Shown in pieces: positions 3,011 through 30,163 of a DNA stretch of 30,163 nucleotides. The position numbers and the translations under genes are program-made. The stretch comes from a virus: IMG/VR virus record IMGVR_UViG_3300025112_000110, positions 1-30,163 of that record, one strand, 5' to 3'. The notes below the pieces were generated by a model. The model did not search any database. It was not told the origin of the DNA and saw only the letters and a list, made by a program, of their open reading frames with translations. Each line of letters starts with the position of its first letter. Position 1 is the first letter of the stretch.

Positions 3011-3829
3011 TTATATATCAAGTTGAACTCTAATTGTTACGGGGATGTCAGTTGATTTTCTCATTGGTCTTGTTAATTTTCCCACTGCTAATAAATTATT
3101 ATCATCATCGTATAATCCTATTGATGAAATATGAGGTTGCCAAGCAATACCACTTGAAACTAAATCTGGAAAGAATTCAGCATTATTTGAGCTACCTGTC
3201 AATCCACCAGTCATATAATTTCCACCGGCAGTAATATTAAATGCTGAAGGATTTAAAGTAAAATTCATTTCATTTGGTTGGCATTTACAAAATACGCTTA
3301 ATTCTGTATTTTGAACAATTGCTCTATATTTTAATGATGTAATTGATTGAACTATGCTTGTCAATGATGATGATGCAGATGTAACAACAAACATTCCTTC
3401 ATCATTAAGAAATGCGCCATAAGTAACACCATTGCTCTTTCTTACTAATGCTCCAGAACCAGAATCATAATAATCATCTGCATGTGCGCCAGTTACTGCT
3501 GCAGTTAATGATCCATTTTTTATCTTAACATCAAAAAATCTTTTTTTCAATTGATAGATTCCAATATTACCAGTAAGACCCGTATAGCTTTCTTCAAAAC
3601 CCCTATTGAATAATGTCATTCTTGTAGAATAATATGAACTAGAATTGCTGCCAGTTAAGCTTGCAGTTACTGAACAAACAGATGTAGCTAATGTATCAGC
3701 AGTCGTTATTGTCAATAATCTTGATGTTTCAAAATCAGTGTAAATAACATCAGAAGCCTGTAACGAAACATAAGCATTTTCAATATCTTTGTTCGTTATT
3801 ATAGGTAATGTTGGAGGTCCTAAAGCCAT
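3011..3829 (-). CDS. Virion protein sharing a C-terminal domain with two neighbours
   Basis: This is a 272-aa structural protein. The C-terminal part (~185-272) contains NEMNFTLNPSAF, then ISSIGLYDDDNNLLAVGKL, then a basic RPMRK segment and a final beta strand ending VQLDI. The same signature ends the products of 4371-6545 and 6565-7431. An upstream GAFLNDEGMFVV strand is also shared. I know the signature from virion structural proteins of large marine phages; its exact role is not established. The N-terminus differs from its paralogs. The ATG overlaps the stop of the 2H phosphoesterase gene (TAATG), so the two are probably translationally coupled. It is likely a fibre or baseplate-edge subunit. 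Confidence 0.7.
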   Translation of the reverse strand: MALGPPTLPIITNKDIENAYVSLQASDVIYTDFETSRLLTITTADTLATSVCSVTASLTGSNSSSYYSTRMTLFNRGFEESYTGLTGNIGIYQLKKRFFDVKIKNGSLTAAVTGAHADDYYDSGSGALVRKSNGVTYGAFLNDEGMFVVTSASSSLTSIVQSITSLKYRAIVQNTELSVFCKCQPNEMNFTLNPSAFNITAGGNYMTGGLTGSSNNAEFFPDLVSSGIAWQPHISSIGLYDDDNNLLAVGKLTRPMRKSTDIPVTIRVQLDI

Positions 3830-4350
3830 TATAGTTTTATCTTTATTTTTTTTCCATCGCTAGATGAAAATATGATTGTTTTAACTAAAAATTTTCTATC
3901 TCTAAATTCATCAATTCCTACGTATTTTTTTCCTATTCCTGGTTGAACATATCCTATTGTAACATGCGGCTTATAATCAGGCCAACTATTTTCATTTTTT
4001 ATATTTTTATCTAAGGTATAATGCATTTTATGTAGCATTTCACCATGAACATCAATTTTTATAACATCGTAATTATCAGCATTAAAAATTGATAATTTAC
4101 CAAGAAATACTTCAAATGGTTTAAATTTCTTTAATATCTGTCTTGTTTTTATTGGCTCTTCTTCATGCAGGCCATATAGCACTGTACAATGAATATCATC
4201 TTCTCTTCCATAAGAATCATCTTGGGGATCTTCATATATTTCATTATTAGGAATATTATCATTTCCCCATTTTATCAATTCTCTTGCAAAATTTAATGGA
4301 AAATTTGCTTGTGTTGAACTATAACTATAACTACCTTTCATTTTTTTCAT
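3829..4350 (-). CDS. 2H phosphoesterase-like protein (2'-5' RNA ligase fold; possible Acb1-type)
   Basis: This is a 173-aa soluble protein with the two histidine motifs of the 2H phosphoesterase superfamily: H54-C-T56 in DDIHCTVLYGLH and H129-V-T131 in YKPHVTIGYV. They are about 75 residues apart, the usual spacing. The strand before the second motif (DYDVIKIDV) fits the duplicated fold. Family members hydrolyse 2',5'- or 2',3'-cyclic phosphodiester bonds; T4 Acb1 (57B) uses this fold to destroy CBASS cyclic-nucleotide signals, and others process tRNA or RNA ends. The gene sits between fibre genes and is coupled (TAATG) to the next one. It is out of place functionally, which suggests an accessory or counter-defence cargo gene. 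The enzyme class is well supported; the substrate is not. Confidence 0.8.
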   Translation of the reverse strand: MKKMKGSYSYSSTQANFPLNFARELIKWGNDNIPNNEIYEDPQDDSYGREDDIHCTVLYGLHEEEPIKTRQILKKFKPFEVFLGKLSIFNADNYDVIKIDVHGEMLHKMHYTLDKNIKNENSWPDYKPHVTIGYVQPGIGKKYVGIDEFRDRKFLVKTIIFSSSDGKKIKIKL

Positions 4351-22920: not shown

Positions 22921-25900
22921 CTATTGTCTTGACATTTCTTCAAAATTTTCTGCAACAACATCTGATACTTTTCTTCCATCCATATGAACTTCTACTGGAC
23001 GATTTTCAAGCCCGTTAATTGCAGTTCTTAATTGACGTATTTCTCCTAGCAATGCACCATCACCTTGTGTATTAGTTGTAGAATTAAATGAGCTACTTTG
23101 TTGTGGCGTTGCAGCAACTCCTCCACCAGAAAATGCCCTTGCCGATGTCACAACCGCCCCAGGGGTTTCGGCGAATTCTTTAGCACGTTCCATCATACCA
23201 CTAATTCCGCCACCGCCGAATTTGGCTTGGAAAGACGCCCTTCCCTTACTATTACCACCACTACCCCTGCTTGCCATAATTTCTTGTGATTTTTGTAATG
23301 ATTCAGCTGGACTTCTTCTTCTATCAGCTTTTTCTTCCGCACCTTTCATATCATAGAATGAAAAACCGTCTTTGGTTCCTGGTGCTTTTTCTTTTCCGAA
23401 TATTTGCATATTTAATGCTTTTATTTCATCCTTTGGAATTTTATCACCAGGCTTACCACCACTAGCATACAGTTGCTCTAAGATTGCAGGGTGCCATGCA
23501 GATTCTATTTTTGCACCTTTCCCAAATGACAGCACCTTCCCAATTGCTTTACTGGCAGCTCCAAGACCTAACATCTTACCCATGCCTTTTAATTTACCCA
23601 TTGCTTTACCGGCAGCTCCAAACATTTTACCAACTCCCGGAATCTTTTTGGCAAGCCCCATAGCCCCGCCTTTTAAGAGTCCCATTGCTTGCCCAGCAAC
23701 GCCCATTACTTTTTTCATCCCTGGTATTTTGCCCAATACTTTAGCACCCAATTTATCAAGCATATCTCCTACAACTGGTATACTACGAAATGTATTGATC
23801 ATCGGGCCGATTCCAGGAATAGCATTTATTGCCATTCCAACTGGATCAGTAAACTTGCCTGCCCATTTACCCATCATTTTTCCAATACCGGTATTCCCCA
23901 GCATTTTACTTATTCCACCTTTTTTGAATAGATTTCCAACACCACCCAAGGCACCACCTTCTCTAAACATTCCACCAACACCACCCAATGCACCACCTTC
24001 TGCGAATGCACCTGTAATACTTTTCTTAAAATTATCAGCTTTTTCTTTTAATGCTTCTCTAAACCCTGCGGGGCGAGCCTGCCCTGTAGCGTCGGCTTCC
24101 ATCGCATCGGGAACGCCATCACCATCGGTATCCACACCTGGGACATCAGCAACCATGGTATCAAGTGAACTCCTAAATTCTGGCATTGATTCATCTAGTG
24201 GCAAGTTAGCCATGTCTGAAACTGATGGTTTATTTAACTCGTAGCCCGCAAATTCAGCTTCCATTTCTGGAGTCCATTTTGGCAATATTTCTTCTTCATG
24301 AACTATTTTAGGTAAATGATCAACGCTTGGTATATCAACTGTTGGCTTATTCATCGCAGCAAATTCAGCTTCCATTTCTGGAGTCCATTTTGGCAATATT
24401 TCTTCTTCGTGAGCTATTTTAGGTAAATGATCAATGCTTGGTATATCAACTGTTGGTTTATTCATCGCAGCAAATTCAGCTTCCATTTCTGGAGTCCATT
24501 TTGGCACTATTTCTTCTTCATGAACTATTTCAGGTAAATGATCAATGCTTGGTACCTGAACTAGTTCAGGTATATCTGCCCATGGGTCATCTGGCATATC
24601 TTCATCTGGTGGAACTGTAATATTAACTGTTGGTCTGCTGCCATCTGATGGAACTGTAACATCACTATCGCGAAGATATTCTTCGTAATCTGTTGCAGAT
24701 GCAGGACTCCTATCATTTGAAACTAACCTTCTTAAAAATCCACCTTTGTCTTCAGATCTAGCAAATCTATTTATTACACCTTCTGAACCAACAGATTGAG
24801 CTAAAGCACCTTGCCAACCACCTCTTGCATAGGCTCGACCCATTCCACCAAAGTTTTTTGCAATTGCTGTATCACCAAAAGCGCCACCTTCACCCAATAT
24901 TCCACCTTCACCAAATACATTACCTGCCAAACCTCTGAATCCACCCTTTTTATACGCCTGATATGCATTAGCACCTTGACCAAATGCACCACCAGCACCT
25001 TTGAAATGTTCATCCAATACATTTGCTAATAAATTTATAGTATCATTGCTATTAATACTTTTGATATAATCACCAACACCTCCTATAAATCCTTGCGTGC
25101 CTGATCTAAATTCTTTTACACCACGAGCAAATTTTTCACTATTTTCTTGTTCTCTTTGCCATACTTTTCTTTCATCCTTCTTAAGCTCTTCCCTATATTG
25201 ATTTGCAGCTGTCATCATTGCTTGTTGTCTTGCTCTTCTTGTAACAGGATCACCTGCAGCAGAAGTAGTTCCAACATCTGATGCAACACCAGCAGCTGCA
25301 GCAGCACCACCTCTCATGTTTAATGGAATTACAAATCCACCACGTGCAAATTTTAATGGGCCAGATCCAGGATTGCCATCCATTTTTCTGCCATTTAATG
25401 GAAGTACTAATTCAGGGCCAGCTTCACCAATGATTGCTTTAGTAGGCTTAGTAATTAATCCACCTCTAAACTTAGGTTTTGTATTACTCTTCTTCAAAGT
25501 TTCTATTGCCTCAGAAAATTTAACAAAAAAGTCGTTTTCCATGAGCTTTTTTTCAAGGTTATCGTAACCCCGCGGGTCAATGCCCAATTTTTTGGCCCAT
25601 GTTGATCTATTATCATTATACATAGAACCAGTTTGCCTAATTCTTTGTTCTTCTTCTTCTGCAGCTTGCCTAATTCTTTGTTCTTCTTTCTTCTTAAACT
25701 TTTCCCTGATGTTATCACCAAAGGAGGTATCTTGCTCAAACAAACTGTCTACATCAAACTCTATTTGCCATCCCTTTATAACCTTCGCCCACTGCTCCGG
25801 GCTCATTTTGCCAGCGCCGCCTGGCTTGCTCGATGGTTCATCTGGTATATGTTCATCTGGTGGAACTGTAATATTAACTGTTGGTCTGCTGCCATCTGAT

Positions 25901-28035
25901 GGAACTGTAATATCACTTCGAGGCGGAGGAGGAAACAGCTTGTCCATTTCACGCGATTGATCTGGCGACGCAGTTTTATAATCCATTCCTGTTGCAGTTC
26001 TATCTATCGCTGTCTTAGTAATACCAATACCATTACCATTACCATTATCTTCTATTGTTTGTCCAGTTGAGTTATTGGGCGGTCGAGTGTCATCTGCACC
26101 TAAGAGCCAACCCAAAAACCAATTCCTTTTGGCAGCAGCATCTAATGCATAACATAAAGCATCTGCTAAACCAGTCTTTATGTTAATCCATAATGCCGAA
26201 AGCCTATCTGAAATAGCATCAACACCAGATGCTTGGCCCTCTGGGAACCATTCATGAATCTTCTCTCTTATTTTATCTGCCCATGGGTTTATTTTATCTG
26301 TTAGCCATAAACCAATTTGATTTAATAATGGTAAACCAACAGATTTTATTGAATGCCAAATTTTACCCCATGTTGTTCTATTATCATCTAACAGCTCCTG
26401 CATATGCTTCATCTTTTTATCATTTTTATCCCATTGAATCCAACCATCTTTAGCTGCTTGATTTAGTTTTTTAGCAAAATCAGCTGAAATACCCATCTTT
26501 TTTATAAAGTCTTGTCTTTCACCATATCTCATTTTATCCCATTTACTATTTTTAGCCATTGCATTACCAATTAGCTTATTTATTTCTAAAGTTTTGCCAT
26601 TCATTGCTAAGTCATACAACGTGTTTGCATTTATATCAGCACCTAATCTCTCATTCATCAATCTTGCCTTTTCCATAGCTGTTTCATAGTCAAGCAATGA
26701 ATTAGTTAAACCTACTGATTCTTCTAATGAAACACCTATCTTTCTAGCCTGCAATGCCGCTTCAGCTAATTTATCACCAGTACTACCGGAATAAAGTGCA
26801 AGTAAATTAGCATCTTTTGTAATATCTCTCATTACAATGCCTAATGAAACACCATGGCGTGATGCATTAGCGGCTACATTTGCTTCAAAATCTTTCAATT
26901 CAGCATTAGTCATCCCCATCGATCTTGTAAGAACTTCAACCATTTGAGCCGCTTCATCAACACCAATGCCAAATGCTAAAGACCATTTAGTAGTCGTATC
27001 AACCATTTGACCAGTAACTTGCCTTATATCTCCAAATTTAGAAATAAGCGCAACCATAGATGCATCTATTTCTGCTTGCGCCGCACCAACTCTAATCAAA
27101 CCTCTTTCAAATTTAGCAGTATCATTTATCAATGGCCTGAATTGTTTTCTAGTAAGACCTGTTGCTTTAGATAATCCAGCCATTCTAGTTTCTGCTTTCA
27201 TAAATAATTTTATAATGACCAAAATAGCAGCTGCAATAGCACCCCACACTCCTAATTTCAATAAATTACTAGAACCACCTTTTGCCATTCCTCCAAAACC
27301 CATTTTTCCACTTATTTTTCCAAACAAATCAGAGCTAATTATTTTTTCAAATTTTTTGGTCATCATTGGCGCAAGCTCACCTATACCTTTACTTAGCATT
27401 TTACCAACCATAGGTATTCTTTCTGCAAGATTTTTAAATGGATCTAACAATCTTTGTGTTGCATTTTCAGATGATTTTGCTATTTTCTTTCTTTCTTTTA
27501 ACTCTGCAATCCCTTCTTTTAAAGTATTTTGGTTATGCTTTAATTCTTTTTTAGCCTGGCTCATCTCTAGCTTAAAATTTTTGTCTATTTCTTTTGTTCT
27601 TCTATCAATTAATTTTTGTTGCTTTCTTGAAAAATTAAATTCACCTTGTAATTGTTTTTCTTTTTTCTTTCCAAGCTCAGATATTTTTTTTCCAATAGAC
27701 TTTTCATCCTTTTCTTTCTTTTTACTTACCTTAAATTGATTAGCTATTAATTTTTCAAAATCTTTTGTTTCTTGTTTTTTCTTTGTTTCAAGATCTTTTT
27801 GCAATTTATCAAAATTATTATTACTTTTCTCTTGTGTAGAAACAAGTTCATTTATTGCATTATCCCAATCATCTGCAGTTAATCTTTGTTGCTTAGTTAT
27901 TTTATCTAAATCATCAACATTTTTAACAACACCGCGCATCGCATTATTAAGCAATTTAGTTTCTTGATCAACTAAATTTAAATGATCTGTAACATTTTTC
28001 ATTACATCATTTAATTCTTGTGAAAAATCAGGCAT
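22921..28035 (-). CDS. Tape-measure protein
   Basis: This is a 1704-aa protein. Residues ~1-200 form a lysine/glutamate-rich coiled coil (KKKQETKDFEKLIANQFKVS). A hydrophobic helix lies at ~258-281 (LGVWGAIAAAILVIIKLFMK). The central helical domain (~285-540; DASMVALISKFGDIRQVTGQ, DEAAQMVEVLTRSMGM) is typical of tape measures. IGEAGPELVLPLNGRK (~870) is a known tape-measure motif. There follow long Gly/Met/Lys linkers, two copies of a PSDGSRPTVNITVPPDE segment, three 37-residue repeats (~1151-1262) and VDTDGDGVPDAMEAD (~1301). The end (VEVHMDGRKVSDVV) is also typical. It sets tail length and is ejected with the DNA. Local GC-rich patches in the linker half contrast with the rest and suggest assembly from foreign or repeated pieces. 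Confidence 0.92.
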   Translation of the reverse strand: MPDFSQELNDVMKNVTDHLNLVDQETKLLNNAMRGVVKNVDDLDKITKQQRLTADDWDNAINELVSTQEKSNNNFDKLQKDLETKKKQETKDFEKLIANQFKVSKKKEKDEKSIGKKISELGKKKEKQLQGEFNFSRKQQKLIDRRTKEIDKNFKLEMSQAKKELKHNQNTLKEGIAELKERKKIAKSSENATQRLLDPFKNLAERIPMVGKMLSKGIGELAPMMTKKFEKIISSDLFGKISGKMGFGGMAKGGSSNLLKLGVWGAIAAAILVIIKLFMKAETRMAGLSKATGLTRKQFRPLINDTAKFERGLIRVGAAQAEIDASMVALISKFGDIRQVTGQMVDTTTKWSLAFGIGVDEAAQMVEVLTRSMGMTNAELKDFEANVAANASRHGVSLGIVMRDITKDANLLALYSGSTGDKLAEAALQARKIGVSLEESVGLTNSLLDYETAMEKARLMNERLGADINANTLYDLAMNGKTLEINKLIGNAMAKNSKWDKMRYGERQDFIKKMGISADFAKKLNQAAKDGWIQWDKNDKKMKHMQELLDDNRTTWGKIWHSIKSVGLPLLNQIGLWLTDKINPWADKIREKIHEWFPEGQASGVDAISDRLSALWINIKTGLADALCYALDAAAKRNWFLGWLLGADDTRPPNNSTGQTIEDNGNGNGIGITKTAIDRTATGMDYKTASPDQSREMDKLFPPPPRSDITVPSDGSRPTVNITVPPDEHIPDEPSSKPGGAGKMSPEQWAKVIKGWQIEFDVDSLFEQDTSFGDNIREKFKKKEEQRIRQAAEEEEQRIRQTGSMYNDNRSTWAKKLGIDPRGYDNLEKKLMENDFFVKFSEAIETLKKSNTKPKFRGGLITKPTKAIIGEAGPELVLPLNGRKMDGNPGSGPLKFARGGFVIPLNMRGGAAAAAGVASDVGTTSAAGDPVTRRARQQAMMTAANQYREELKKDERKVWQREQENSEKFARGVKEFRSGTQGFIGGVGDYIKSINSNDTINLLANVLDEHFKGAGGAFGQGANAYQAYKKGGFRGLAGNVFGEGGILGEGGAFGDTAIAKNFGGMGRAYARGGWQGALAQSVGSEGVINRFARSEDKGGFLRRLVSNDRSPASATDYEEYLRDSDVTVPSDGSRPTVNITVPPDEDMPDDPWADIPELVQVPSIDHLPEIVHEEEIVPKWTPEMEAEFAAMNKPTVDIPSIDHLPKIAHEEEILPKWTPEMEAEFAAMNKPTVDIPSVDHLPKIVHEEEILPKWTPEMEAEFAGYELNKPSVSDMANLPLDESMPEFRSSLDTMVADVPGVDTDGDGVPDAMEADATGQARPAGFREALKEKADNFKKSITGAFAEGGALGGVGGMFREGGALGGVGNLFKKGGISKMLGNTGIGKMMGKWAGKFTDPVGMAINAIPGIGPMINTFRSIPVVGDMLDKLGAKVLGKIPGMKKVMGVAGQAMGLLKGGAMGLAKKIPGVGKMFGAAGKAMGKLKGMGKMLGLGAASKAIGKVLSFGKGAKIESAWHPAILEQLYASGGKPGDKIPKDEIKALNMQIFGKEKAPGTKDGFSFYDMKGAEEKADRRRSPAESLQKSQEIMASRGSGGNSKGRASFQAKFGGGGISGMMERAKEFAETPGAVVTSARAFSGGGVAATPQQSSSFNSTTNTQGDGALLGEIRQLRTAINGLENRPVEVHMDGRKVSDVVAENFEEMSRQ
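24251..24583 (-). repeat. three tandem 111-bp repeats in the tape-measure gene
   Basis: Three near-identical 111-bp units start at 24251, 24362 and 24473 on the plus coordinates. Each encodes 37 residues containing HLP, HEEE, PKWTPEMEAEFA and NKPTVDIP or a variant. The period is a multiple of three, so the frame is kept. The copies differ by only a few bases, which indicates recent duplication. The unit is acidic, with one Trp and Pro at both ends, and is likely an extended linker. Confidence 0.95.
24590..24666 (-). repeat. 77-bp direct repeat, copy A (tape measure)
   Basis: This 77-bp stretch matches 25841-25917 with three mismatches by eye. It encodes VTVPSDGSRPTVNITVPPDE plus MP. It adjoins the triple 111-bp repeat, so the two repeat families may have spread together. 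A 24-bp piece of the same sequence also occurs outside the gene at 28051-28074. Confidence 0.9.
25841..25917 (-). repeat. 77-bp direct repeat, copy B (tape measure)
   Basis: This is the second copy of the 77-bp segment, about 1250 bp from copy A and in the same reading frame (TVPSDGSRPTVNITVPPDE followed by HIP). The strong identity across a region that otherwise differs points to gene-internal duplication or conversion. Recombination between the copies would remove about 417 codons in frame. Confidence 0.9.
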
Positions 28036-28050
28036 CTATAATCTCTTATT

Positions 28051-28074
28051 TCTGGTATATCTTCATCTGGTGGA
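28051..28074 (-). repeat. 24-bp fragment of the tape-measure repeat at a gene junction
   Basis: The sequence covering the last codons and stop of the small gene 28063-28272 and the gap before the tape-measure ATG matches the first 24 bp of copies A and B with one mismatch each. It is in a different frame (S-T-R-stop instead of P-P-D-E). A repeat fragment therefore seems to have replaced the native 3' end of the small gene. Confidence 0.75.
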
Positions 28075-28272
28075 TTTGAATAAATTGTCTAGCATTTCAT
28101 CAAAAGAAGCTTCTTTACCATTTATAGTTATTTTTTCTTTACTTAATTTTACTAATGCATTTCGTGCTTTTTTTAATTTGTCTAAATCTGGAGTAGAATC
28201 ATCGTCTACTGCCCCAAGTTTTTTTATTATGCTTGTAAAAATACCTTCATCAAGTATATCTTTTAATTTCAT
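28063..28272 (-). CDS. Small protein with capsid-targeting-like leader, upstream of tape measure
   Basis: This is a 69-aa protein from the ATG at 28272-28270, chosen because GGAGAG lies 7 nt upstream. A longer frame from 28326 would start inside a hairpin and has no ribosome-binding site. It begins MKLKDILDEGIF, a leader with an L-D-E/G site that fits the gp21-type protease rule (I/L-x-E then G/A/S). The rest is a short helical domain (DLDKLKKARNALVKLSKEKI, then FDEMLDNLF). Similar small MKLKxxL proteins sit before tape measures in other aquatic T4-like phages as I recall them. Its C-terminus ends within a stray tape-measure repeat fragment, so it may be shortened. Function unknown; a packaged internal protein or tail chaperone is possible. 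Confidence 0.65.
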   Translation of the reverse strand: MKLKDILDEGIFTSIIKKLGAVDDDSTPDLDKLKKARNALVKLSKEKITINGKEASFDEMLDNLFKSTR

Positions 28273-28296
28273 ATTATCTCTCCATTTTATATAAAT

Positions 28297-28327
28297 ATTG
28301 CCCCTACAAAATATTCGTAGGGGCAAT
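28297..28327 (-). terminator. perfect 11-bp hairpin between genes, probable terminator or mRNA-end hairpin
   Basis: An 11-bp perfect inverted repeat (ATTGCCCCTAC / GTAGGGGCAAT) with a 9-nt loop lies between the gp26-region stop at 28331 and the ATG at 28272. It is the only strong GC-rich hairpin noticed in this AT-rich window. On the minus strand it is followed by ATTTATAT, an incomplete T-tract; on the plus strand a T6 run comes some bases later. It may attenuate read-through into the tape measure or protect an mRNA end. Confidence 0.6.
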
Positions 28328-28330
28328 GCA

Positions 28331-28495
28331 TTATTTTTTCTTATTCATTTCATCAACTTCTTTATTAGATCTATTAATCCACCACTTTCTTAACCATACA
28401 GGCATGTTAAATGCTTCTGTAAAAGTTAATTTACAATGATAAGTTAATGAGAATACTTCTTCATATATGTAACTTTTATGTGTATCATTCAGGCC
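28331..28495 (-). CDS. Start-less +1-frame extension of the gp26-like gene (tail-assembly chaperone-like)
   Basis: The frame +1 relative to the gp26-like gene is open from 28495 to the TAA at 28333-28331, giving 54 codons. Text includes SYIYEEVFSLTYHCKLTFT, EAFNMPVWLRKWWINRSNK and a basic end NKKK. The 'EA-N-MP-W-LR---I' pattern recalls small proteins encoded right after gp26-type genes in T4-like phages. There is no ATG, GTG or TTG before this core: an in-frame TAG lies upstream and the only ATG near the start is deep inside, at MPVW. Expression would therefore need a shift at the seven-T run (28496-28502), joining it to residue 282 for a 336-aa product. Alternatives are a CTG start or a base-call error in the run. 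Confidence 0.6.
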   Translation of the reverse strand, partial: GLNDTHKSYIYEEVFSLTYHCKLTFTEAFNMPVWLRKWWINRSNKEVDEMNKKK

Positions 28496-29342
28496 AAAAA
28501 AACTCTACCGTAATTGGTAAATCTACCTCCTGGCGTTGACCACAAGAAATACATTCAAACATTTGTTTCATAACAATATCTGGTTCATTATCATCAACAA
28601 ATTTTCTGAATTCTCTTGAGTCCCTTACCGGCATAGAATCTACATAATCACTAATTACTTTAGGGCTGATATTACCATTTATTGAAAGAATTTGCTTTTT
28701 AAGTCTTGTTGTTACATTCCTATCAACTTGGGCATATTGTCCCCCAGCTCTTTTTATGTTAGCTTGATATTCTGATATTTCTTTTTGTTCACCTGAAGTA
28801 AGCAATTTAAATTCAATTTCATTATTTGACTTAGTCTTATATGTAAATTTATTTTCACCTTCTTCAATAGGATCTAAATTAAGTTCATTTACATCTAAAT
28901 TAGATAAATCAAATTCAAAATCAGCTTCTTCTGAACAACTTGGACATGTTACTGAAATATTGTAATCTGCACCATATCCACTAACTCTTAATGCCATCAT
29001 AATAGCATTTTTATCACCAGATAAAAGATCATCAACATTAACAGCTTTATTACAAACACATCTTGAAACGACCATATCAACAGCTTTGCCACTTCTAATT
29101 AATGATCTTGATGTTAAAATATCTTCTTCAGCTGCTGTCATTTGCCTTACTTCAATTTCTTCTGCCTTATACAACGATGAAACTTTAGAATATATTTTGC
29201 CTTTTGATGGAAGCTTAACATATTCTCTTGGAATTTGAAATCCTGCAGCTTGATCTTGTTTTGTTGGTTCTGCTACCTTTACAGGTATTTCATTATCACC
29301 TTCAGCCTCAAATGTAATTTGTGGCTTCTTTGGTTCTGCCAT
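28485..29342 (-). CDS. 26: T4 gp26-type baseplate hub assembly protein
   Basis: This is a 285-aa protein of the T4_baseplate family. Signatures are YVKLPSKGKIYS (~41-52), EIEVRQMTAAEEDILTSRSL (~62-81), and an ending VDLPITVEFFWPE typical of the family. Four cysteines form a likely zinc ribbon: C133-P-S-C136 and C264-I-S-C267. In T4 the gp26 group aids assembly of the central hub. TAGGAGG gives a strong ribosome-binding site before the ATG. The start overlaps the end of the homing endonuclease by 35 nt. The end holds a T7 run through which a +1 shift would extend it by 54 residues; this resembles tail-assembly chaperone genes that sit just before the tape measure and use frameshifting. The family call is good; the number 26 is by analogy. 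Confidence 0.8.
   Translation of the reverse strand: MAEPKKPQITFEAEGDNEIPVKVAEPTKQDQAAGFQIPREYVKLPSKGKIYSKVSSLYKAEEIEVRQMTAAEEDILTSRSLIRSGKAVDMVVSRCVCNKAVNVDDLLSGDKNAIMMALRVSGYGADYNISVTCPSCSEEADFEFDLSNLDVNELNLDPIEEGENKFTYKTKSNNEIEFKLLTSGEQKEISEYQANIKRAGGQYAQVDRNVTTRLKKQILSINGNISPKVISDYVDSMPVRDSREFRKFVDDNEPDIVMKQMFECISCGQRQEVDLPITVEFFWPE
28496..28502 (-). promoter_or_regulatory. candidate frameshift site (seven-T run)
   Basis: The minus strand reads GAG TTT TTT TGG near the end of the gp26-like gene. A +1 slip (or -2) at the T7 run lets a Phe tRNA re-pair perfectly and enters the 54-codon open frame. The alternative -1 slip meets TGA after two codons. The zero frame ends three codons later. 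Transcriptional slippage on the homopolymer is equally possible. Confidence 0.5.
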
Positions 29343-30163
29343 GAATCCTCCTATTTTCTAACATTTTTTTTATTTTTAATGGTGAATGTTTTACATCATT
29401 TTCCCATACAATAATTACTTTATAACCACATTGTTTTATTTCATCTATTCTAGCAATATCATTTTTTCTTTTATCTAATGCAGAACAATTAATTTGTTCT
29501 ATAATAAAATTATCTTCATATTTATCTGGATTGCCATGCCAATAATCACCATAATATTCTATGACTGTATCGAATTTATTTAATGTAGAAACTATAAAAT
29601 CTACTACATGCCCATTAATCCATTGCTGTTGCTTAATATGATCTGTATTAAATATAGGAATTAAAAATTCTTCATAAAATTTAATTTCTTGTTTATTGAA
29701 TTTATATTTAGCTCTATATTTTTGAACATTGCAACCCAATTTTTTCCATTTTTCAGAATTATTTTTTACAGTATTTTTAATAGACTTAGTTAAATTGTCT
29801 TGATGTTTTTTTGTTCTATTAGAAGCATAATTAGATAATTTATCTTTCCAAGTTATTTCTCTTCCAATCATTTTTTTAGATATTGCCATTAATGCTGGAT
29901 GATTTTCTTTAGTGAGACCTTTATTCCATACTTGTAATTTTCCTTCAGCCCTTAATTTATTTTGTGTTTCAACTGCTTTCTTTCTAGCATTTTCATTATG
30001 ACCCCAATTATTTTTTATTCTAGATGCATGCCCTTGCTGATAAGAATTTTTAAAACCTAGTTTTATATTTCTAGTTTGCGGGCGTTTTAATTTATTACCA
30101 CAACCGCAAGAACATAATGGCCATTGGCCATTAAAATAAAAATTAACATAAAATTGCTCAGTA
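29308..30163 (-). CDS. Free-standing homing endonuclease, Vsr-like (EDxHD) type, 5' end cut by edge
   Basis: The frame stays open from 30162 to the TGA at 29310-29308, so the ATG at 29889 is internal and the gene begins outside the window. N-terminal: a CSCGCGNKL cysteine cluster with a later QGH (a zinc-finger pattern seen in phage homing endonucleases). It is followed by a NUMOD3-like DNA-binding segment, VWNKGLTKENHPALMAISKK. C-terminal nuclease: INGHVVDFIV, then TVIEYYGDYWHGNPDKYE, then RIDEIKQCGYKVIIVWENDV, the order of the very-short-patch-repair fold. It would cut a related phage lacking the gene and spread by repair. It lies in front of the gp26-like gene and overlaps its first codons, so it is probably translated with late genes. 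Confidence 0.8.
   Translation of the reverse strand, partial: TEQFYVNFYFNGQWPLCSCGCGNKLKRPQTRNIKLGFKNSYQQGHASRIKNNWGHNENARKKAVETQNKLRAEGKLQVWNKGLTKENHPALMAISKKMIGREITWKDKLSNYASNRTKKHQDNLTKSIKNTVKNNSEKWKKLGCNVQKYRAKYKFNKQEIKFYEEFLIPIFNTDHIKQQQWINGHVVDFIVSTLNKFDTVIEYYGDYWHGNPDKYEDNFIIEQINCSALDKRKNDIARIDEIKQCGYKVIIVWENDVKHSPLKIKKMLENRRIHGRTKEATNYI

Follow-up and report, generated by a model that had tools for sequence, protein, structure and literature searches.

Gene layout and frame relation at the locus

The window considered here is the whole stretch of 30,163 nucleotides (positions 1 to 30,163 of the IMG/VR virus record IMGVR_UViG_3300025112_000110), and the features described below lie on its minus strand. 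A gp26-like gene (28485..29342) encodes a short form of 285 aa, which corresponds to the N-terminal part and zinc-ribbon-like core of a predicted tail assembly chaperone (matches to PF12322 and phrog_150, and those of an AlphaFold model). The predicted frameshift site, TTT TTT TGG CCT, lies near the end of this gene (28491..28502); within it, the proposed P-site codon UUU occupies 28497-28499, the A-site codon UGG 28494-28496, and the skipped base would be the U at 28496. An ORF of 54 codons and a stop in the +1 frame (28331..28495) would provide the C-terminal (T-like) domain of a 336-aa long form, as suggested by its +1 coding signature, its homologies, a sub-threshold match to DUF6760 and a predicted two-helix hairpin.

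A strong terminator-like hairpin (28297..28327; -21 kcal/mol, z -6.1) is found just past the stop of the small ORF. It is the sole terminator-like site within 28000-29400, and about one quarter of the relatives carry terminator-like hairpins at the same place; located between the chaperone and tape measure genes, it may lower expression of the tape measure. Only one ORF (28063..28269, 68 aa, without family match) separates the gp26-like gene and its long form from the presumed tape measure gene (22921..28035). The 1704-aa product of the latter gave no match in the family search and was assigned from its length, its glycine-rich and coiled-coil-like make-up and its place after the chaperone genes; the gene at this position is annotated as tape measure in Flavobacterium phage immuto and Listeria phage LIS04, which have the same gene order. 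On the other side, a VSR/DUF559-like endonuclease ORF (29308-30162), open at the window end and perhaps of the homing type, shares 35 bases with the start of the gp26-like gene. An RNA ligase-like protein (3829-4350; phrog_755, 2e-12) is encoded amid the tail and baseplate genes.

In the zero frame, the gp26-like gene ends as GTA GAG TTT TTT TGG CCT GAA TGA, encoding V E F281 F282 W P E and a stop, and includes a run of seven T (28496-28502). The +1 frame is closed by a TAG at 28505-28507 and is open from 28504 as AGT TTT TTT GGC CTG. Past F282 it encodes 54 residues, GLNDTHKSYIYEEVFSLTYHCKLTFTEAFNMPVWLRKWWINRSNKEVDEMNKKK, and ends at a TAA (28331-28333), so that the long form would have 282 + 54 = 336 aa. 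No ATG, GTG or TTG is present ahead of the conserved core of the small ORF, the first in-frame ATG being inside that core (NMPVW). The -1 frame at the site ends two codons on (TTG GCC TGA), which sets the site apart from the -1 X_XXY_YYZ class seen in lambda and cyanophages. A sequence-only reading of this DNA had described a 54-codon frame without usable start, one base out of register with the gp26-like gene, and a long form of 336 aa; coordinates, lengths and frame are all as described. The long form's tail had also been called basic and Trp-rich, of which the second term holds (3 W in 54 residues) and the first applies only mildly (9 K/R for 7 D/E).

Conservation of the site and of the +1 frame

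Homologous loci were drawn from IMG/VR in searches with the N-terminal part of the protein, and two isolate phages were added. Because of this choice of query, the selection of loci is independent of the frameshift site. The comparison set comprised 105 loci with 94 distinct small ORFs, whose cores form 90, 66, 39 and 18 clusters at 90, 70, 60 and 50% identity, respectively. The conservation and substitution counts given below include related sequences and cannot be treated as independent trials; the pattern is nonetheless uniform.

An in-frame YTT TGG near the gene end, with the small ORF in the +1 frame, was found at all 105 loci, among them a contig of identical sequence in another record (L001) and the genomes of the isolates immuto and Mel-JY01, the latter a Microcystis phage. 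Among the distinct small ORFs, the P-site codon is TTT in 84 and CTT in 10, and never TTC, although 25% of Phe codons in these genes are TTC; TGG fills the A site in 94/94, and the next codon is CCT in 90/94. Conservation peaks at TT(T/C)(T/C)TTTGGCCT, with third positions of the zero frame fixed in the site and nearly free around it. Substitutions in the small ORF, counted by codon position 1/2/3 of the +1 frame, amount to 3506/2356/8712, and the Gly-Leu codons directly after the slip are conserved. The frame relation, the invariant site, the selection on coding in the +1 frame and the homology of both parts to T4 gp26/gp51 (see below) can be read directly from the sequence.

The site occurs in three forms among the 105 loci: TTTTTTTGG (89), TTTCTTTGG (10) and TTCTTTTGG (6). 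The run of seven T, to which the sequence-only reading had drawn attention, is the commonest form (78 of the 94 distinct small ORFs); it is not essential, being broken in TTCTTTTGG and TTTCTTTGG, and TTC TTT TGG or TTT CTT TGG is found in the other 16/94. Of 11 phage-like contigs assigned to bacterial or archaeal genome bins, 10 have T7GGCCT, and the eleventh has T8CCCT. Two variants were noted in which the small ORF is still in +1: TTT TTT TTC CCT (L215, 4700-4760) and TTT CTA TTC CCT in a 484-kb phage (L027, 3200-3250). To judge from these two sequences, UGG at the site is not strictly required.

Start codons of the small ORF were compared in the same way. ATG, GTG and TTG are all absent up to codon 15 in 35/94 small ORFs, and ATG is absent between codons -12 and +15 in 65/94. 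Homologs with a normal start codon for the small gene had been named as an outcome that would speak against a frameshift; in the comparison, the small ORF has no conserved start codon.

Reading of the site

The gene is very probably a tail assembly chaperone gene of a T4-type contractile-tailed phage, whose short and long forms would be produced by a predicted +1 frameshift. Four other explanations of the frame relation were weighed. The first is slippage of RNA polymerase on the seven T, giving mRNAs one U short that encode the fusion. It would suit the predominance of the T7 form, yet TTCTTTTGG and TTTCTTTGG are non-slippery and keep the same frame relation, and selection acts on the YUU UGG codons rather than on the length of the run; we regard it as very unlikely.

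Of similarly small probability is independent expression of the small ORF as a gene of its own, through re-initiation or a non-AUG start such as the CTG at 28490-28492. An ATG is found at codon +6 in some relatives and just past the gp26 stop in many cyanophage relatives, and the small ORF appears as a gene in some records. Against this stand the 65 small ORFs without ATG in the region searched, the occurrence of an SD-like sequence ahead of the ATG in only 5 of the 36 ATG-bearing small ORFs, and the conservation of the Gly-Leu codons right after the slip; moreover, both parts are joined in a single protein in T4 gp51 and at two bacterial injection-system loci.

Ribosomal frameshifting by -2, as in Mu, would reach the same frame with one extra Phe, and on the T7 of the window UUU re-pairs at -2 as well as at +1. 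In the relatives with TTC TTT TGG or TTT CTT TGG, however, the P-site tRNA would meet TCT or TTC at -2, which is mismatched, whereas at +1 it always meets UUU. The analogy with the Mu -2 shift, drawn in the sequence-only reading, is disfavoured in that TTCTTTTGG and TTTCTTTGG permit cognate re-pairing only for +1, and this explanation appears extremely improbable. An artefact of sequencing or assembly, or the decay of a fused gene, has next to no probability: homopolymers are error-prone and a run of six T would have meant a simple fused gene, but the same frame relation recurs in 105 loci from many samples, including L001 and the isolates immuto and Mel-JY01, over which sequencing error is untenable.

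The simplest mechanism for the predicted +1 frameshift would be for the tRNA in the P site to slip by +1 from YUU onto UUU, because TTCTTTTGG and TTTCTTTGG break the T run and the YUU nevertheless lands on UUU. We infer ribosome shifting, its frequency, the identity of the tRNA and the binding partners as follows. Most ribosomes would terminate at the TGA and yield the 285-aa short form. A minority would stall over UUU UUU while UGG occupies the A site; the tRNA(Phe) in the P site would then move one base forward, from UUU to UUU, GGC would be read next, and the 336-aa long form with its C-terminal two-helix domain would result. If lambda G/GT is taken as the model, the core common to both forms would cover the tape measure, the additional domain of the rare long form would bring in tube subunits, and neither chaperone form would remain in the virion.

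No SD-like match of at least 4 bases was found within 20 nt upstream of the +1 site in 79/92 loci, and RNA structure downstream is weaker than in control stretches (mean z -0.26). Since neither an SD-like sequence close upstream nor a downstream structure was found, the efficiency of the shift may be low. A GGAGGT-like, SD-like sequence lies about -45 to -25 from the +1 site at many loci (L092-type). It was considered as a stimulator and rejected, being too distant for known roles; it falls on Glu-Val-Pro codons, which probably explains it.

The +1 frameshift of bacterial prfB (RF2) takes place at CUU UGA, with an in-frame stop in the A site and an adjacent SD-like stimulator. The window shares with it the re-pairing of a P-site YUU with UUU one base on and, as predicted, a slow A-site event, and YUU followed by U, which allows cognate +1 re-pairing, is present in 94/94 distinct loci. 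It differs from prfB in that the A site holds a sense codon (UGG in 94/94) instead of a stop and that no SD-like sequence is adjacent.

Product identity and related systems

The gp26-like protein matches PF12322 (T4_baseplate) with 67.3 bits for a cut-off of 24.5, residues 43-283 aligning with positions 8-219 of the 219 of the profile, and phrog_150 (baseplate hub) at 1.5e-22. The same family is matched by T4 gp26 (208 aa) over 1-206 and by T4 gp51 (249 aa) over 1-201; T4 gp51 can therefore be described as the core followed by a 48-residue extension. In profile comparisons, the frameshift domain of cyanophages matches the C-terminal extension of T4 gp51 (P 2e-11) and the +1 domain of the window's clade (P 6e-8), while comparing the latter directly with the T4 gp51 C-terminus gives a weak match (P 0.003). 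PHROG 150 spans both parts, with the gp26-like core at 10-233 and the cyanophage domain at 236-281, and the cores of cyanophages and of the window align up to a common Phe-Phe end (P 7e-8).

The +1 domain matches DUF6760 (PF20546) with 19.9 bits, below the cut-off of 27, and related members reach E 6.9e-7; no DUF6760 was found in the genomes that bear the phage contigs. In two bacterial loci (L302 and L303, both 859-1623), the gp26-like core and DUF6760 are fused in-frame in a single 255-aa ORF with FF at the junction, and in a third (L301) a DUF6760 ORF without ATG overlaps in the -1 frame. All three are contractile-injection-like operons with adjoining sheath and tube genes. This suggests that, in cellular injection systems, DUF6760 plays the part of the T-like domain.

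The short form and the small domain were modelled separately. The AlphaFold model of the short form has a pLDDT of 84, and its alignment with 743 chains using VIA-align ranked HK97 gp13 first (Z 6.1, 82 residues) and YqbN second (Z 5.7, 84 residues); both are phage tail assembly chaperones, and these Z values are middling (under 8), so that kinship is not provable by Z alone. Foldseek of the same model against the PDB returned nothing significant. A sequence search of solved structures gave no match for the core and chance matches only for the small domain, which is predicted to form a two-helix hairpin. Because of the homologies, the chaperone-like model matches and the place before the presumed tape measure, the best reading of the product is a tail assembly chaperone of the lambda G/GT kind, the chaperone function being assigned here by homology.

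Like lambda G/GT and other tail assembly chaperone (TAC) frameshifts, the window would make short and long products from overlapping frames before the tape measure, with a T-like domain in the second frame; this arrangement, proposed in the sequence-only reading, is supported at every homologous locus of the clade. Lambda and most other TAC genes differ in shifting by -1, and no sequence homology of the window gene to lambda G/GT was found. T4 gp26 (short) and gp51 (long) belong to the same PF12322 family and form the same pair of products, core alone and core with C-terminal domain, but are encoded by two separate genes on opposite strands, gene 26 ending without a frameshift, whereas the window has one gene with a +1 site. 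As both T4 proteins match PF12322, T4 by its sequence has a separate gene for each of the two forms.

The gp26 genes of Kyanoviridae cyanophages and of jumbo phages share with the window the core, the domain in an overlapping frame and the Phe-Phe position, and differ from it in a predicted -1 shift at T_TTT_TTC. In the cyanophage type, a -1 small ORF follows T_TTT_TTC in all 79 readable loci (T_TTT_TTT in one), an SD-like GAGGG or GAAGGG is found 8-9 nt upstream, and the small ORF is called gp51 in many GenBank records. In jumbo phages (relatives of Munch, PA5oct and Atu_ph07), the -1 site is present in 60/61 distinct loci. A tree of 79 cores, in which the root is not fixed, groups the -1 cyanophages with T4 gp26 and gp51 (support 98), the -1 jumbo phages separately (support 92), and the window's +1 clade as a third group. 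The predicted direction of the shift has changed at least once within the gp26 family. A frameshift at the end of a T4_baseplate-family gene, which the sequence-only reading had held to be unusual, looks normal there, with +1 in the window's clade, -1 in cyanophages and jumbo phages, and split genes 26/51 in T4.

We consider it moderately probable that a distinct +1 signal, YUU_UGG_CCU, without stop codon, adjacent SD or RNA structure, serves the long chaperone of a whole T4-type lineage, that the direction was switched between +1 and -1 within one family while the Phe-Phe place and the products stayed constant, and that T4 escaped the need for a shift with two genes.

G-T frameshifting has been described as widely conserved in long-tailed phages "except T4", and a +1 shift as very likely in the haloarchaeal myovirus HSTV-2 (PMC5009743). 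The long-listed exception of T4 was later explained by its two genes; here, T4-type phages are predicted to frameshift. According to papers citing Vladimirov et al. 2022, some T4-like phages have a short chaperone gene together with a fused long one in place of a frameshift (PMC10885494), and poly-T -1 signals occur in T4-like chaperone genes (PMC12846349); a -1 site is described for Vandenendeviridae (PMC12846349). As far as these citing papers convey it, the chaperone identity of T4 gp26/gp51 and the -1 poly-T arrangement in T4-like phages are already known. No description of the +1 class, of the uniform YUU UGG signal or of a switch of direction within the family was found, Vladimirov et al. 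2022 being known through the papers citing it, and with that scope the +1 class looks to be the new element.

The +1 signal is conserved over proteins less than 50% identical and stands beside -1 relatives, so that a single protein family can serve to test how the direction of frameshifting evolves; the many natural variants of this simple +1 signal are also a resource for studies of mechanism. The gene, which commonly carries the label "baseplate hub", receives a corrected annotation, an unannotated small ORF gains a likely role, and DUF6760 gains a lead.

In the tree of cores, Streptomyces and SP-15-type phages, which are +1 by frame, fall outside the window's +1 clade. In phages SP-15, LIS04 and SagM (L030, L031, L032; ~3190-3230), the small ORF is also in +1 and a conserved NCC CGA TTY, perhaps another +1 site, lies near the end of the gp26-like gene. 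In the Streptomyces phages LuckySocke and BRock (L035, L036; ~3200-3230), the small ORF is in +1 after TTT CRS GAA CTC TRA.
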